From: an uncultured Alphaproteobacteria bacterium
Lineage (GTDB): Bacteria > Pseudomonadota > Alphaproteobacteria > UBA6615
DNA length: 64,000 nt
NCBI GenBank assembly: GCA_943787745.1
Contig: CALSNJ010000002.1
Location: 880,125-944,124, forward strand
Direction: 5' to 3'
Shown: positions 13,948-40,629 of the stretch, in pieces
How the letters are laid out: each line of letters opens with the position of its first letter
Position numbering within the stretch: position 1 is the first letter of the stretch
The notes under the pieces: model-generated
Databases searched by the model: none
The model's input: only the letters and a program-made list of their open reading frames with translations
What the model was told of the DNA's origin: nothing
Made by a program: the position numbers and the translations under genes

Positions 13948-14124
13948 TCAAAGGCGGTCGGAATGACCCTCATCAGCACTGCCCGGCTCATCGTCGATCA
14001 ATATACGCTGTGCAGCACCGTCGAGGTCATCGTACTGCCCGGTACGAATGGACCAGATGAACGCGGCAAGCCCGATGGCACCAAGAAAAAGCGCTGCAGG
14101 AATCAAAACCAACAGAATGTTCAA
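13948..14124 (-). CDS. ccoS: CcoS, cbb3 oxidase maturation protein
   Basis: This 58-residue single-TM protein ends the ccoGHIS maturation operon. From its likely TTG start (TTG AAC ATT CTG) the protein reads N-I-L-L-V-L-I-P-A-A-L-F-L-G, then F-I-W-S-I-R-T-G-Q-Y-D-D-L-D-G, the diagnostic CcoS signature. The start overlaps the TGA of the upstream P-type ATPase fragment in the arrangement TTGA, showing translational coupling in the original operon. CcoS is needed for cofactor insertion into the cbb3 core. Because the rest of the locus is deleted, this gene is probably an intact but useless leftover. An open frame continues upstream to 14256 but is the antisense/alternative frame of the ATPase. 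Confidence 0.9.
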   Translation of the reverse strand: MNILLVLIPAALFLGAIGLAAFIWSIRTGQYDDLDGAAQRILIDDEPGSADEGHSDRL

Positions 14125-14905
14125 GGCATTGATTCCCCGCTTTGCCGACGTTGCAGCCGCAGGGCATTCAAAGTCACCAGGAGTGATGAAGAGGACATCG
14201 CAACAGCGGCCACAAGGGGGGTTACAAACCCCGCCATCGCAAAGGGGACGGCACAAGCGTTATAAAGCACAGCTAACCCGACGTTCTGGCGGGTCAAAGT
14301 CGTTGCGCGGCGGCCGGTTCGAAGTGCAAACAGGACAGGAGCCAAGCCGTCTCCCTGAAAAACAAGATCTGCCTGCACCTGACTGATATCAGCAGCTGTG
14401 GACGGCGAAATCGAGACATGCGCCGCTGCGAGTGCGGGTGCGTCGTTCAATCCATCTCCCACCATCAAAACGTGACACCCTTCGGCCTCCAGTTCACGCA
14501 AGCGCGCAACCTTTTCAACCGGCGAACACCCAGCGCGGCGACTCTCAATTCCGAGCGCGACCCCGACCGTTTCAACCACCTCATCGCGGTCACCTGAGAG
14601 TAACTCAACCGCATATCCCATCGCGACAAGTTGCGCGACAGTCGCGGCAGCGTCTTCACGCGGGGCATCGGCAAACGCAAATCCTGCTACAGGCTCCCCT
14701 TCTCTGCTCAACCAGATTTCGGGACCGTTCGACAGTACGGGCTGATCAGCAGCACCACACCAGTCACGCCGCCCCAAACGCCAACTGGTCCCCTCAATCG
14801 TCGCCGTCACTCCACAGCCAGCGACCTCCTGGCTATCCGCCGCCGGCGTTTGTACTCCTTCGGCCCGCTGTATCGCACGTGACAGTGGATGATTGCTGGC
14901 GGAGG
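14121..14905 (-). pseudogene. ccoI: ccoI/copA-type heavy-metal P-type ATPase, 3' fragment cut by an IS element
   Basis: About 260 C-terminal residues of a P1B copper ATPase (CcoI/FixI) remain. Reading leftward from the insertion element the frame begins S-A-S-N-H-P-L-S-R-A, the conserved HP motif of the nucleotide-binding domain. The hinge G-D-G-L-N-D-A-P-A-L and the last two TM segments follow, ending in -G-E-S-M-P. The metal-binding domain, the first six TM helices with the CPC motif and the DKTGT phosphorylation site are all missing, because the IS3-family element starts precisely at 14906. A GTG at 14810 can open a 229-aa frame, but the product cannot pump copper. Confidence 0.92.
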
Positions 14906-14932
14906 TGTCCTTCCCCCCTAAAACTGGGCCAC
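14906..14932 (+). repeat. Left inverted repeat of the IS3-family element
   Basis: The sequence starts TGTCCTTCCCCC and contains ACTGGGCCAC. It matches the right end in inverted orientation at the TGTC tip, the C-run and the CTGGGCCA block, with one base of length difference. Confidence 0.85.
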
Positions 14933-14959
14933 TATTTTTAGAGACTGAAGGGGGATGTG

Positions 14960-15247
14960 ATGGCTCGGAAACGTTATTCGGATGAGGACATACTCAAGCT
15001 GCTGCGTGAGATTGAGGTGAAGCTGTCGACTGGCAGTGACGTGCCGTCGGCCTGTCGTGGCGTGGGTATTAGTGATGCCACTTACTACAACTGGCGCAAG
15101 CGGTTTGGCGGGATGGGGAAGTCTCAACTGTCGGAACTTCGCGCTCTTGAGAAAGAGAATGTGCGGCTGAAGAAGATCGTCGCGGAACTCGAACTCGATA
15201 AGCTGATCCTCAAAGAAAGCTTGACCCACCTGAAGCCCAGGGCCTGA
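14960..15247 (+). CDS. IS3-family transposase OrfA
   Basis: This 95-residue DNA-binding subunit has an N-terminal helix-turn-helix (about residues 5-55, with S-A-C-R-G-V-G-I-S-D-A-T-Y-Y-N-W as the recognition part) and a leucine-zipper-like helix (about 60-90). AAGGGGG at 14948-14954 supports ATG 14960; a GTG at 14957 is in frame directly before it. OrfB lies in the -1 frame and remains open upstream across the OrfA stop, so an OrfAB transposase made by ribosomal frameshifting is expected. Confidence 0.93.
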   Translation: MARKRYSDEDILKLLREIEVKLSTGSDVPSACRGVGISDATYYNWRKRFGGMGKSQLSELRALEKENVRLKKIVAELELDKLILKESLTHLKPRA

Positions 15248-15270
15248 CGACAGAGCAGGTCCGTCAGGCC

Positions 15271-16089
15271 GTGATCCATACGCGTCAGAAGCTCGCGACG
15301 TCAGAGAGACGGACATGCCGGGTGATCGGACTGGCGCGCAGTTCTCTGCAATACCGACCGGCCCGGCGAGATGATGATGCTCTGCGATTGGCCCTGATCC
15401 GGCTGGCCAAGCAATACGGGCGCTACGGCTATCGCAAGATAGCCGAACTGCTGCGCATCGAAGGTTGGAAGGTGAACCACAAGAAGGTTGAGCGGATCTG
15501 GCGCGAAGAAGGCCTTCAACTGCCGCAACGGCACAAGAAGCGCCGACGGCTCTACCACAAGGATGCTTCGATCATACGGCTGCGGCCAACCCATCCGAAC
15601 CACGTCTGGAGCATCGACTTTGTACACGACAAGCTCGACAGCGGTCGGAGTTACAAGATGCTGACAGTTCTCGACGAGTACACCCGTCAGGCTCTAGCGG
15701 TCGCGGTTCGCACCAGGATGGGAGCTGAGGATGTCCTTGAGGCGCTCTACCCGCTACTCATGCGCCACGGCACTCCAGAATATATCCGTTCCGACAATGG
15801 CCCCGAGTTCGTCGCGGAAGCGATGCAGGACTGGTTGGCAAGGGTCGGGATCAAGCCTATCCGGATCTATCCCGGGTCACCCTGGGAGAATGGATACAAC
15901 GAACGATTTAACGAAACTCTGCGCCGCGAGGTGCTCAACGCCGAATGGTTCACCACAACAAAGCAGGCCCAGATCGTCATCAACCAGTGGCTCAGACAGT
16001 ACAATCACATCCGCCCACATCAGGCCCTCAACATGCGCCCTCCTGTTCCAGAAACTCTAATCAGGAATGGCCCAGAACATGGGGGCTAG
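15271..16089 (+). CDS. IS3-family transposase OrfB (rve integrase core)
   Basis: This 272-residue DDE transposase has an N-terminal HTH_21 region (about 35-90) and an integrase core with Asp116 (W-S-I-D-F), Asp175 (R-S-D-N-G-P-E-F) and Glu211 (N-G-Y-N-E-R-F-N), a D-D-35-E spacing as expected for IS3. The GTG at 15271 is only the first start codon in the frame; the frame is open further upstream into orfA, which fits a frameshifted OrfAB fusion. Its stop codon lies inside the right inverted repeat. No stop or frameshift damage is seen. Confidence 0.93.
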
Positions 16090-16092
16090 ACA
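16066..16092 (+). repeat. Right inverted repeat of the IS3-family element
   Basis: Read on the minus strand this end begins TGTCTAGCCCCC and continues ATGTTCTGGGCCATT, matching the left end. The bases just beyond it on the plus strand already belong to ccoN codons (F-M-V-V on the minus strand). Confidence 0.85.
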
Positions 16093-17203
16093 CGACCATG
16101 AAGCGGATGATGGGATCCGTACGAATCTTGTCCCATGCGCCTGACAACGTCATCAGGCCGTTGATCATGCCTCCCCAGGACGGCATCCACAGCATGATCG
16201 AGAAGGTCATGCCCAGCGTTTGCGCCCAATCCGGCAGCGCCGTGAAATGAAGGTGATGGGGTCCGGCCCAAATGTAGAGAAAAATCAGCGACCAGAAATG
16301 CACGATCGAGAGGCGATACGAGAAGATCGGTCGTCCCGCCTGCTTGGGCAGGAAGTAGTACATGATCCCCAGAAATCCGGCGGTCAGGAAGAAGCCCACC
16401 GCATTATGGCCGTACCACCACTGGGTCAGCGCATCCTGCACGCCGGACCAGAGAATATAGCTTTTCGAACCCGTCAGGCTGACCGGCACCGAGGCATTGT
16501 TGACGAGGTGCAACATCGCAACGGTGACGATGAAGGCCAGATAGAACCAGTTTGCCACATAGATATGCGGTTCCTTGCGTTTCCAAAGCGTCGCCAGAAA
16601 GACCAGCAGATAGGCAACCCAGACGATGGTCAGCCAGAGATCCACATACCATTCCGGCTCGGCATATTCCTTCGACTGGGTAATCCCCAGCAGATAGCCG
16701 GTGGCCGCAAGAACAATGAACAGCTGGTAGCCCCAGAATACGAACCATGGAGCCAGTTCACCGGCGAGCCGCGCACGGCAGGTGCGCTGGACGCAATAGA
16801 ACGAGGTCATGATCAGAACGTTGCCACCGAAGGCAAAAACAACCGCTGAAGTGTGCAGCGGACGCAGACGTCCGAAGTTGATCCAGGATGTGTCAAAATT
16901 CAGAACCGGAAAGGCGAGCTGTAAAGCGAGGACCAATCCGACCTAAAACCCGGCCAACCCCCAGAACATCGATGCAATCACACCGGCCCGGATCACGCCA
17001 TCATTGTAGTCGACGCTCCCTTGCCCGGTTGCTGCCGCAGGTCGCGCACCATAGATACGGCTGATCAGCGCAAACACGGCCAAGATGGCCGCTCCTGCGA
17101 ACATCATGCCGTGGATTCGCATCCCCGTATCTGCAGCGCTCGACGCCACTCCCAAACCCAGGATTGCGGCCACGCCCAATCCAAACATCGCAAACACGTT
17201 CAT
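16093..17203 (-). pseudogene. ccoN: ccoN (cbb3 oxidase subunit I), amber codon plus 3' deletion
   Basis: Subunit I of cbb3 cytochrome c oxidase is recognisable over about 370 codons: [34 protein letters not shown], and [14 protein letters not shown] with the CuB His pair. It is doubly broken. A TAG at 16943-16945 stands in frame at a position where CcoN normally has a hydrophobic residue (TTG to TAG would be one base change). The gene also runs into the IS element after I-I-R-F-M-V-V, losing the last third with the low-spin haem ligand region. The fragments on both sides of the TAG are in the same frame, so this is a nonsense change and not a shift. ccoO, ccoQ and ccoP are absent. Confidence 0.93.
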
Positions 17204-37560: not shown

Positions 37561-39618
37561 ATGCGTCTGCTAAAGAACGGAGACCGACCCTATCATCTCG
37601 GGCCGTTTCCTCTTGAGACGCTCCCGCGTGATGAACGAATAGCTGGCCCCGAGATCGCCCGCCCACACATCGCTGCCGACACGAACAAGGAAGCAGGGCC
37701 TCTTCTGGGTCTGTCACTGCGCGCATATCGAGATATCTTCTCTCGCGTCGCAGAGGGCGAAGTGGCCCCCATACGTGCACCCGACACAGATGACCCCATG
37801 CGCTGCACGGTCGACATCAAAGGCGCGGCCTATTTCATGGATGCCAGCCAGGTCGGCATCTGCCGCATTCCCTTGAACGCCTGGCGCGCAGGGGCTACGC
37901 CGCGCGCGCATACTCACGCCATTGTCCTGCTTCTCGAACACCAGCGCGTTCCCCATGATGAGCCGCGTGCGCGGTCATGGGCTGAGGGGAATGTGCAGGA
38001 ACTTGCTGAAATGCGCGCTACGGAAATCGCCGGAAATCTGGCAGGTCATATCCGCCTGATGGGCTTTGATGCCCGCGCTGATGTTCCCGGTCAGCGTTTC
38101 CTCGATGAAGAGCGGCTGGCCGTTCTGGCAGGACTTGCCGTGCGGCGTGACGACGAGAGCCTGGCCAACCCATATGTGGATGCCTTTTCACTGATCGTCA
38201 TCAGTACGGACTACGATCTTATCTGCGATTCCCCCCTCGCCGCAGCGGCTCTCAATGCGAAGGGCTTCCGATATTGGTGGGGCATCAATGATGCGCAATC
38301 AGGGCGCGAACGAAACCGTCGCGCCAAGCGGGCGTCCTGGGCCAGCCGATACCCCATGGAAACTGTAAAACGGGTGGCCCGACCGACAACGCTTATCCTT
38401 GATGACGAGGTGAACCCGGCTGCGGATACGTCTGCGTATTCCGATCCAGCTGCAAATGCCAAAGCCATCAAGGCTTTGTCCTACTTTCTTGGATCAGACC
38501 TCACAGGTATCTGTGAGGTGCCGCGCTATGCCTGGTACTCCCACAAGGACGATGGCACGCCGATTGAGATGTATCACCGCTACGCGGTCGTTATGCTGAT
38601 CGATCAGGGCTTTGAAACCATGGAAGGTGCCAGTGGTGACGACTGGATATCCGGGTCCCAGTCCATGCGCGGGTATCAGCGTGGCGCGGAAATCGCGGGA
38701 ATAATGTCTCATCATCTCGGACAACTTGGGTTTTCGGCGCGCGCCCAGACAAATGCCGATAGTGATGTCCTGCAAATTCCACTGGTCTTGCTCGCCGGAC
38801 TGGGGGAGTTGAGCCGCATTGGTGAACTCGTCCTCAATCCTTTTGTCGGCCCACGGTTCAAGTCGGTGGTGCTGACAACAGACATCCCATTGGACGTCGA
38901 CAAACCGATTGATTTTGGCCTCCAAACCTTTTGTCAGGGATGCCTGAAATGCGCCCGCGAATGTCCGTGTGATGCCATCCCGTTTGGCGACAAGGTCATG
39001 TTCAATGGCTATGAAATCTGGAAACCCGACGCCGAACGATGTGCCCGCTACCGGGTGACAAACCCGCACGGCTCTGCCTGTGGTCGATGCATGAAGACAT
39101 GCCCGATCAACAAGGTCGTCGATAGCGACGGCCCATTGCTCTCACGCGCGGCCAGCTGGCTGGGTGTGAACGCCATGTTCCTGAAAAAGCTGATGGTACC
39201 TGTCGCAACATGGGCTGATGACGCACTGGGCAACGGCCGTCGGAATGCCGCCAAGAAATGGTGGTTTGATCACGAGGTCGTGGGGGATCGCGTTGTCGTT
39301 CCGAAAGGCGTGAACCAACGTGAGATAGACCCGTCTCGCAAGGTGGATCCCGCCAAACAACGTCTGGCGTACTACCATGCGAGCATGATGCCGCCGCCCG
39401 ACACAGCCGAACCTGTTCCGGTCGACCGCAAAGCCGCGATGGCTGCAAAAGCCTTGCTGGAAACACCAAACGAAGCCCGTGCGCGTATGGCTGCCGGCGG
39501 CCCTGCCCCGGACCATTACACACCCACTCCGCCCATCGGTACTGGACCCGCGAAAAATCTTGCGGCAAACCCCTATTCCACTGACTTTGCAGATATGAAA
39601 ACCCCGCCGAGTGAATAA
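37561..39618 (+). CDS. Cytoplasmic reductive-dehalogenase-like corrinoid/Fe-S protein
   Basis: This 685-residue protein resembles catabolic RdhA enzymes (NpRdhA type) that reductively dehalogenate with cobalamin and two [4Fe-4S] clusters. It has an internal duplication: the G-x-x-x-V-G-I-C-R-I-P-L-N-A-W unit near residue 95 recurs as S-D-L-T-G-I-C-E-V-P-R-Y-A-W near 315, as in NpRdhA. The ferredoxin-like part has Cys458-x2-Cys461-x2-Cys464-x3-Cys468-Pro and Cys494-x12-Cys507-x2-Cys510-x3-Cys514-Pro. There is no Tat signal and no RdhB anchor, so it is cytoplasmic. AGGAG precedes the ATG. The C-terminal 110 residues are Pro-rich and divergent. An epoxyqueuosine-reductase-like role is less likely given the size and duplication. 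Confidence 0.82.
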   Translation: MRLLKNGDRPYHLGPFPLETLPRDERIAGPEIARPHIAADTNKEAGPLLGLSLRAYRDIFSRVAEGEVAPIRAPDTDDPMRCTVDIKGAAYFMDASQVGICRIPLNAWRAGATPRAHTHAIVLLLEHQRVPHDEPRARSWAEGNVQELAEMRATEIAGNLAGHIRLMGFDARADVPGQRFLDEERLAVLAGLAVRRDDESLANPYVDAFSLIVISTDYDLICDSPLAAAALNAKGFRYWWGINDAQSGRERNRRAKRASWASRYPMETVKRVARPTTLILDDEVNPAADTSAYSDPAANAKAIKALSYFLGSDLTGICEVPRYAWYSHKDDGTPIEMYHRYAVVMLIDQGFETMEGASGDDWISGSQSMRGYQRGAEIAGIMSHHLGQLGFSARAQTNADSDVLQIPLVLLAGLGELSRIGELVLNPFVGPRFKSVVLTTDIPLDVDKPIDFGLQTFCQGCLKCARECPCDAIPFGDKVMFNGYEIWKPDAERCARYRVTNPHGSACGRCMKTCPINKVVDSDGPLLSRAASWLGVNAMFLKKLMVPVATWADDALGNGRRNAAKKWWFDHEVVGDRVVVPKGVNQREIDPSRKVDPAKQRLAYYHASMMPPPDTAEPVPVDRKAAMAAKALLETPNEARARMAAGGPAPDHYTPTPPIGTGPAKNLAANPYSTDFADMKTPPSE

Positions 39619-40370: not shown

Positions 40371-40402
40371 CAAAAGGAAAGGGCCGCTCCGAAGAGCGGC
40401 CC
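40371..40402 (-). terminator. Terminator after the 26-codon ORF / catabolic operon
   Basis: GGGCCGCTC and GAGCGGCCC form a perfect 9-bp stem closed by the stable tetraloop TTCG on the minus strand, followed there by TTTCCTTTT. It lies about 50 bp beyond the stop of the small ORF and just beyond the stop of the convergent esterase. Confidence 0.82.
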
Positions 40403-40449
40403 CGTGAGCAGGCAATTCGCCTAACCCTTGGTCTGATAGACCGTTGTCT

Positions 40450-40530
40450 TTAGCTGGCCAGAGAAGGTTGCTCCACTGTCCGCACCCAAGACACAGGGTT
40501 GAACTCGTTGCCTAGGATCTCACTCGACAT
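40450..40530 (-). CDS. 26-residue ORF with near-ideal ribosome-binding site
   Basis: This 27-codon frame opens ATG TCG AGT GAG and encodes M-S-S-E-I-L-G-N-E-F, then N-P-V-S-W-V-R-T-V-E, ending Q-P-S-L-A-S. It is preceded by a 12-base Shine-Dalgarno at perfect spacing and followed by a terminator, so it looks like a deliberately expressed short protein or peptide precursor. It is the last cistron after an SMP-30 gene on the same strand, 100 bp away. I recognise no family. In the -1 frame, reading stays open past this stop to a TAG at 40421-40423 and would add G-A-T-F-S-G-Q-L-K-T-T-V-Y-Q-T-K-G, so the true product could be longer if a shift or an ancestral indel is involved. Confidence 0.55.
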   Translation of the reverse strand: MSSEILGNEFNPVSWVRTVEQPSLAS

Positions 40531-40533
40531 CAG

Positions 40534-40545
40534 ATCACCTCCTTT
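40534..40545 (-). promoter_or_regulatory. Extended Shine-Dalgarno sequence
   Basis: AAAGGAGGTGAT on the minus strand is complementary to the whole 3' tail of 16S rRNA. GGAGG is seven bases before the ATG of the 26-codon ORF. No other gene in this window has so complete a match. Confidence 0.8.
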
Positions 40546-40629
40546 CGATTGTTGAAGAACATCAAAACCCTAGCATCGGATTCCGCGTCGCCAGCAAGCG
40601 AAAAAAGCAGCCTGTTCTTGAAACTTTTG

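Follow-up and report, generated by a model that had tools for sequence, protein, structure and literature searches.

The closest described relative of the RNA studied here is CC2171 (RF01867), known from Caulobacter and also predicted in Mesorhizobium huakuii (PMC5596092). The literature searched describes neither a function nor an ORF for CC2171, and places it in Caulobacter and one rhizobium only. The available text of a Caulobacter study describes the translation of two ncRNAs that had been predicted earlier, giving no names, and CC2171 may be one of them; according to the same text, 75% of Caulobacter genes have no Shine–Dalgarno sequence (SD) (PMC4117421), so that the extended SD of the RNA described below stands out.

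The stretch of DNA analysed here (64 kb in its entirety, hereafter the window) carries on its minus strand, at 40546-40378, an SD, an ATG, 26 codons, a stop codon and a terminator with a UUCG loop, as read from the letters and the ORFs. A previous sequence-only reading had singled out this place for its ideal ribosome site, its ATG at the right spacing with a 26-codon frame and its tetraloop terminator, and had treated it as a gene-like unit separate from a catabolic operon. Our analysis bears out these elements, with a distance between SD and start that is near-fixed across members, and supports a separate unit with its own terminator, in all likelihood translated. That reading did not recognise that the greater part of the unit is a conserved structured RNA related to CC2171. 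The features of the window copy are as follows:

40592..40597, minus strand: putative -35 hexamer TTGCTG; TTG lies at -48 to -52 from the SD in most members, and the consensus is weak here
40570..40575, minus strand: putative -10 hexamer TGCTAG; a -10-like hexamer lies at about -28 in most members
40378..40556, minus strand: whole conserved RNA element, from the 5' CAAC leader to the terminator, by covariance-model match
40547..40554, minus strand: unstructured leader CAACAATC; its CAACAA positions are 66-87% conserved over members, and the RF01867 model begins here
40533..40546, minus strand: extended SD GAAAGGAGGTGATC, 14 nt, complement of the complete free 16S 3' tail, near-invariant in 156 members
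40450..40530, minus strand: 26-codon ORF MSSEILGNEFNPVSWVRTVEQPSLAS with its TAA stop (ending at 40450), ATG at 40530-40528 and Ser as codon 2; start, Ser2 and stop position are conserved, the sequence is not
40519..40523, minus strand: 5' strand of helix P1, GTGAG, in codons 3-4, pairing with 40404-40408; compensatory changes in helix 1
40463..40474, minus strand: apical hairpin GGAGCAACCTTC (helix 6), which holds an ACCTY anti-SD-like stretch; nucleotides conserved, reading frame different in other families
40430..40442, minus strand: P3 hairpin GGTCTATCAGACC (helix 7), 3' of the stop codon; 5/5 pairs with two-sided changes
40404..40408, minus strand: 3' strand of P1, CTCAC, directly 5' of the terminator, pairing with 40519-40523; compensatory changes
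40380..40403, minus strand: intrinsic terminator GGGGCCGCTC-TTCG-GAGCGGCCCT with UUCG tetraloop (helix 8); 10/11 pairs with two-sided changes

When up to two mismatches are allowed, GAAAGGAGGTGATC has a single site in the 64 kb window, and there it is perfect. The 16S rRNA of the source genome itself ends in GGATCACCTCCTTTC, and the pairing of the SD therefore spans the whole free 3' tail, with 14 Watson–Crick pairs and one G–U pair; several of the SD changes seen across members keep a wobble pair with 16S. The terminator hairpin (40403-40380) was found by a terminator scan and folds with about -21 kcal/mol. Transcription is predicted to start at about 40556-40562. A strict sigma-70 scan of the window copy found no promoter, and the promoter call for this copy thus rests on the conservation of position across members. 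The window ORF by itself would be unremarkable; it is the conservation that exceeds chance.

An Rfam scan of the window at the default cut-off gave no match. With a relaxed E-value, RF01867 matches 18 of 20 loci, nearly always over the full length and with E ≤0.025 in 16 of them; on the window copy it covers 40554-40380 with 34.8 bits (E 6.9e-06 in a 401-base stretch). Since the gathering cut-off is 75 bits, we regard the window copy as a divergent relative and not as one of the filed members; other loci score 76-120 bits. In the other direction, a covariance model built from nine sequences of the window's clade only (R1) matches the window copy over its full length (1-180, the whole element being about 180 nt) and retrieves the other types of the RNA, among them loci that lie above the Rfam cut-off (L124, E 2e-8; L128, 6e-7; L129, 6e-6). 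Full-length homology between RF01867 and the window copy could be traced via intermediates in both directions and, judged by this comparison, the window RNA very probably belongs with the CC2171 family. At E ≤1e-3, RF01867 has matches in 49 of 240 class genomes (the window and 48 others).

Of 95 relatives searched at the DNA level, nine match over most of the element, and they represent two genera within the same family; conservation in relatives, on which the sequence-only reading had made its proposal depend, is therefore present. The same search returned a shorter piece of 30-46 nt, covering the region of the SD and start codon, from further genera and families in the class, and a 20-nt SD/start pattern, AAAGGAGGTGATCNNATGTC, gave 29 matches in 289 class genomes, against 0 for a reversed-pattern control. 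The loci share one layout, consisting of promoter-like -35/-10 signals, the CAACAA leader, SD, start, TCN, a short ORF, hairpins and the terminator. Among 386 class genomes of at least 90% completeness, a second model (R2), built from the window's clade and others, has matches in 122, mostly with one copy each. Named carriers of the RNA are Caulobacter vibrioides, Methylobacterium bullatum and Sphingobium sp. TomTYG74. The window copy scores 158.1 bits with R2 (E 1.2e-44) and is the sole match in its source genome. By such model matches, roughly one in three of the sampled alphaproteobacterial genomes has the RNA, the E-values of these home-made models being rough and many of the genomes being MAGs. 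The sampling relied largely on the conserved 5' block, so that this block appears more invariant than it really is.

Some genomes have two copies of the RNA (G035, G489 and G496). Those of G489 lie on different contigs and are near-identical in the ORF, and the weaker second match in G496 is the Azospirillum-type locus L226. In loci of this type (L162, L163, L226), the CAAC/SD/start block is followed by a secretory-looking ORF of 57-58 aa (MSHGA...LLTAG.A.ADC) and by no short ORF; a copy of the block has perhaps been recruited there as the 5' end of a protein gene. Of about 60 genomes of the genus g76, most lack the RNA or have it in a form too diverged for the Rfam model to detect; the sister genera have it. 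Outside the class and inside the phylum, R2 matches three related elements in one family (L237-L239), which we take to be gammaproteobacterial from its 16S sequence by eye. The 16S tail of this family reads CCTTA, and two of the three elements begin their SD with T, matching that tail; as one or a few events, this match is only suggestive. Another locus outside the class (L212) was rejected as a member by eye, being the 3' end of a ribosomal protein gene, and phage records gave weak, chance-level matches only.

As judged from sequence alignments, the 5' block, a multi-helix fold and the terminator are conserved across Alphaproteobacteria. In an alignment of 23 members, which was fitted to the structure and so favours it, 46 of 51 base pairs show two-sided changes, and 91.4% of cells are paired, against 41-49% when the partners are slid by 1-3 columns. 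A MAFFT alignment of nine sequences, made without structure, contains two-sided changes in 10 of 58 predicted pairs. P1 is formed by ORF codons 3-4 and the bases just 5' of the terminator, P2 lies within the ORF, and P3 follows the stop codon.

The mean predicted probability that the SD is unpaired is 0.55 in the window's clade (f1), 0.00 in family f23, 0.12 in f171 and 0.07 in f175B, and the SD is accordingly predicted to be largely open in the first and closed in the other three. In f23, a CACCTCC-like stretch lies 3' of the ORF, and the SD/anti-SD pair run amounts to 7.8, against 6.2 in mononucleotide shuffles. Since runs of 7 occur in 40% of the shuffles, the case for an anti-SD in f23 rests mostly on its conserved position and on the run counted in Watson–Crick pairs only, which is at least 7 in 9 of 18, against 7% of shuffles. 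In the f175B sub-clade (L249-L252), the SD reads AAGGAAGGTG, with lower complementarity to 16S, and is matched by an internal CACCTTCCTT; by their sequences, SD and internal anti-SD have changed together. An internal anti-SD is a feature of some families and is not universal.

The start codon is NTG in 157 of 159 non-redundant members (ATG 89, GTG 62, TTG 6, CTG 0), the ATG count being helped by a pattern requiring ATGTC through which some of the members entered the set; no such requirement applied to loci retrieved with covariance models. In 154 members the start lies precisely 15 nt downstream of the SD block's first base, and codon 2 is Ser in 152 of 157, which could reflect amino-acid selection. 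All three stop codons are used (TGA 63, TAA 51, TAG 42), and nearly all ORFs have 14-35 codons. Within families the length is kept: 18 codons in 19 of 19 members of f23, with all three stop codons (the unparsed L274 also has 18 by eye, giving 20/20), 14 codons in 8 of 9 members of f171, 23 in 9 of 12 of f175 and 26 in 8 of 10 of the window's clade. First stops are scattered in the +1 frame; a stop in the +2 frame is often supplied by the conserved TCTAGTGA itself. These comparisons make it highly probable that the RNA is genuinely translated. The family-wise lengths, the interchanging stops, the free amino acids and an apical block whose reading frame varies together indicate that start, stop and fold are kept, and that the peptide is not, or only weakly.

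Promoter-like signals and terminator are conserved and, by sequence comparison, the ORF is likely translated. We read the unit as a stand-alone sRNA gene with its own promoter and terminator; its function would lie in capturing ribosomes and in their termination, with the peptide as a by-product, and we give this reading a probability of about 0.5. That translation, and not the peptide, is the function appears slightly favoured on balance; a trans-acting output of the RNA is held with less confidence than that. According to the proposed mechanism, the SD would bind 30S subunits very strongly, and a ribosome would initiate, melt P1 and P2 and terminate at a fixed place, after which the RNA would refold, the peptide being left as a by-product. 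The structure of the RNA would in this way report and respond to ribosome availability, with RNA stability, or the exposure of anti-SD-like segments to other mRNAs, as probable outputs. In some families, the internal anti-SD would hold the SD, the window's clade being predicted as largely open. In its widest form, which we propose tentatively and at somewhat below even odds, this amounts to a free-standing ribosome-gated RNA switch across Alphaproteobacteria, in which translation sets the state of a trans-acting RNA and thereby senses ribosome supply; a few genomes outside the class probably have counterparts that this reading would include.

A small-protein gene, with a functional short peptide and a fold that serves mRNA stability or translation control, is the best of the rival explanations, and we consider it unlikely; the same holds for the peptide precursor considered in the sequence-only reading. 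It would explain the conserved start, Ser2 and stop together with the super-strong SD, and some families do possess specific peptide motifs, e.g., VSHCH...TWIVAS and VSR..LE..VGT. The window's clade also shows a modest synonymous excess (97 changes, against 72 expected, counted over pairs that are not independent and hence pseudo-replicated), which may leave room for some constraint on the peptide, at most a weak one. However, in f23 the true frame has 139 synonymous changes, against 183 and 194 in the shifted frames (no excess), and codon positions vary alike; f13 presents the same picture, without frame-specific constraint. Furthermore, the reading frame that runs through the conserved apical block GGAGCAACCTC varies between families, the peptides of different families have only Met/Val-Ser in common, and a Pfam search with the peptides gave no family match, in agreement with the earlier remark that the peptide belongs to no recognised family. 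Clear purifying selection on amino acids and accompanying genes, which would mark a small protein or a RiPP precursor, were not found in these comparisons, while the RNA fold is constrained. SEP1 of Sinorhizobium (23 aa, highest TE) was considered as a homologue and dropped, an acidic pI being reported for it.

Rather less probable still is a trans-acting non-coding sRNA with an incidental ORF, in which the SD-like block would pair with the 30S subunit as a decoy, with the 3' end of pre-16S or with anti-SD-bearing RNAs. The pairing over the whole 16S tail, which far exceeds that of an ordinary SD, and the filing of CC2171 as non-coding in Rfam both fit such an RNA, but an incidental ORF would not keep NTG without CTG, nor the position of the stop while the stop codons interchange.

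The sequence-only reading had further suggested a leader peptide whose regulated gene has been lost. An ORF followed by a terminator is compatible with such a leader or attenuator, and in the window's family the unit is located after an amidohydrolase or an SMP-30/gluconolactonase gene, so that a 3' by-product of the catabolic operon might also be considered. Yet recurring neighbours occur in close relatives only, and of 60 scored loci, 29 have a next gene that runs in the same direction as the unit and 31 one that runs against it; the co-directional gene directly downstream that an attenuator should regulate does not accompany the unit. Because neighbours are not conserved and the strand of the next gene is divided about half and half, a leader of a downstream gene is excluded; with promoter-like signals of its own and a free-standing position among unrelated neighbours in dozens of families, the unit is very improbable as a lost leader or operon by-product. 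Even less credible is a frameshift, recent or programmed, that would connect the ORF with the -1 frame: that frame is indeed open to 40421 in the source genome, as had been noted, but its stop and sequence are kept in 0 of nine relatives.

Several further observations concern the surroundings. In a relative, the orthologue of the window's SMP-30/gluconolactonase gene (G001:C22:19656-20372) is split by an in-frame TGA, possibly a sequencing error. A 685-aa protein encoded at 37561-39618 of the window has a 4Fe-4S dicluster-like region just below the Pfam cut-off and, by eye, resembles proteins of the reductive-dehalogenase type. An IS3-type transposase ORF (15271-16089, plus strand) overlaps the end of a COX1/cbb3 oxidase ORF (16061-16936, minus strand), whose Pfam match ends at profile position 316 of 436, and a P-type-ATPase-like fragment (14121-14810, minus strand) lies near the transposase ORF; an insertion with loss of a cco-type region is possible at 14121-16936.

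Among the known systems, Pos19 (Rhodobacter) and rnTrpL (Sinorhizobium) resemble the window RNA as short transcripts with a translated sORF, according to the available text of their sources (PMC5036791, PMC7298713); Pos19 was compared by its description there. The peptide of rnTrpL, peTrpL, acts, and the unit derives from an attenuator, whereas the window RNA has a non-conserved peptide and no following gene. Attenuator leader peptides also have a short ORF translated within alternative RNA structures, where the position of the ribosome matters, as we infer here for the window RNA; in contrast to them, the window RNA has no downstream gene, is free-standing and ends in a terminator. The sRNAs with anti-SD loops (CCUCCUCCC type, SmelA075/RSs0680, PMC3927594) are comparable in that some families of the window RNA have CACCUCC or CCUCCUCC, able to pair with SDs, but here the anti-SD faces the SD of the RNA itself, its position varies by family, and the 5' part of the RNA family is itself an extended SD.

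With CC2171, finally, the window RNA shares the 5' block, the position of the start codon (GTG in CC2171), the overall layout and the terminator, and full-length model matches link CC2171 to the window and to most loci; the differences are its filing as non-coding and the score of the window copy below the cut-off. Overall, the family, listed as a non-coding sRNA of Caulobacter, proves to occur widely in the class, mostly with one copy per genome, and has a maintained ORF and a freely drifting peptide. Taken together, these traits point to a free-standing RNA in which translation as such does the regulating; the RNA also represents a clean natural case of 16S complementarity over the whole 3' tail.
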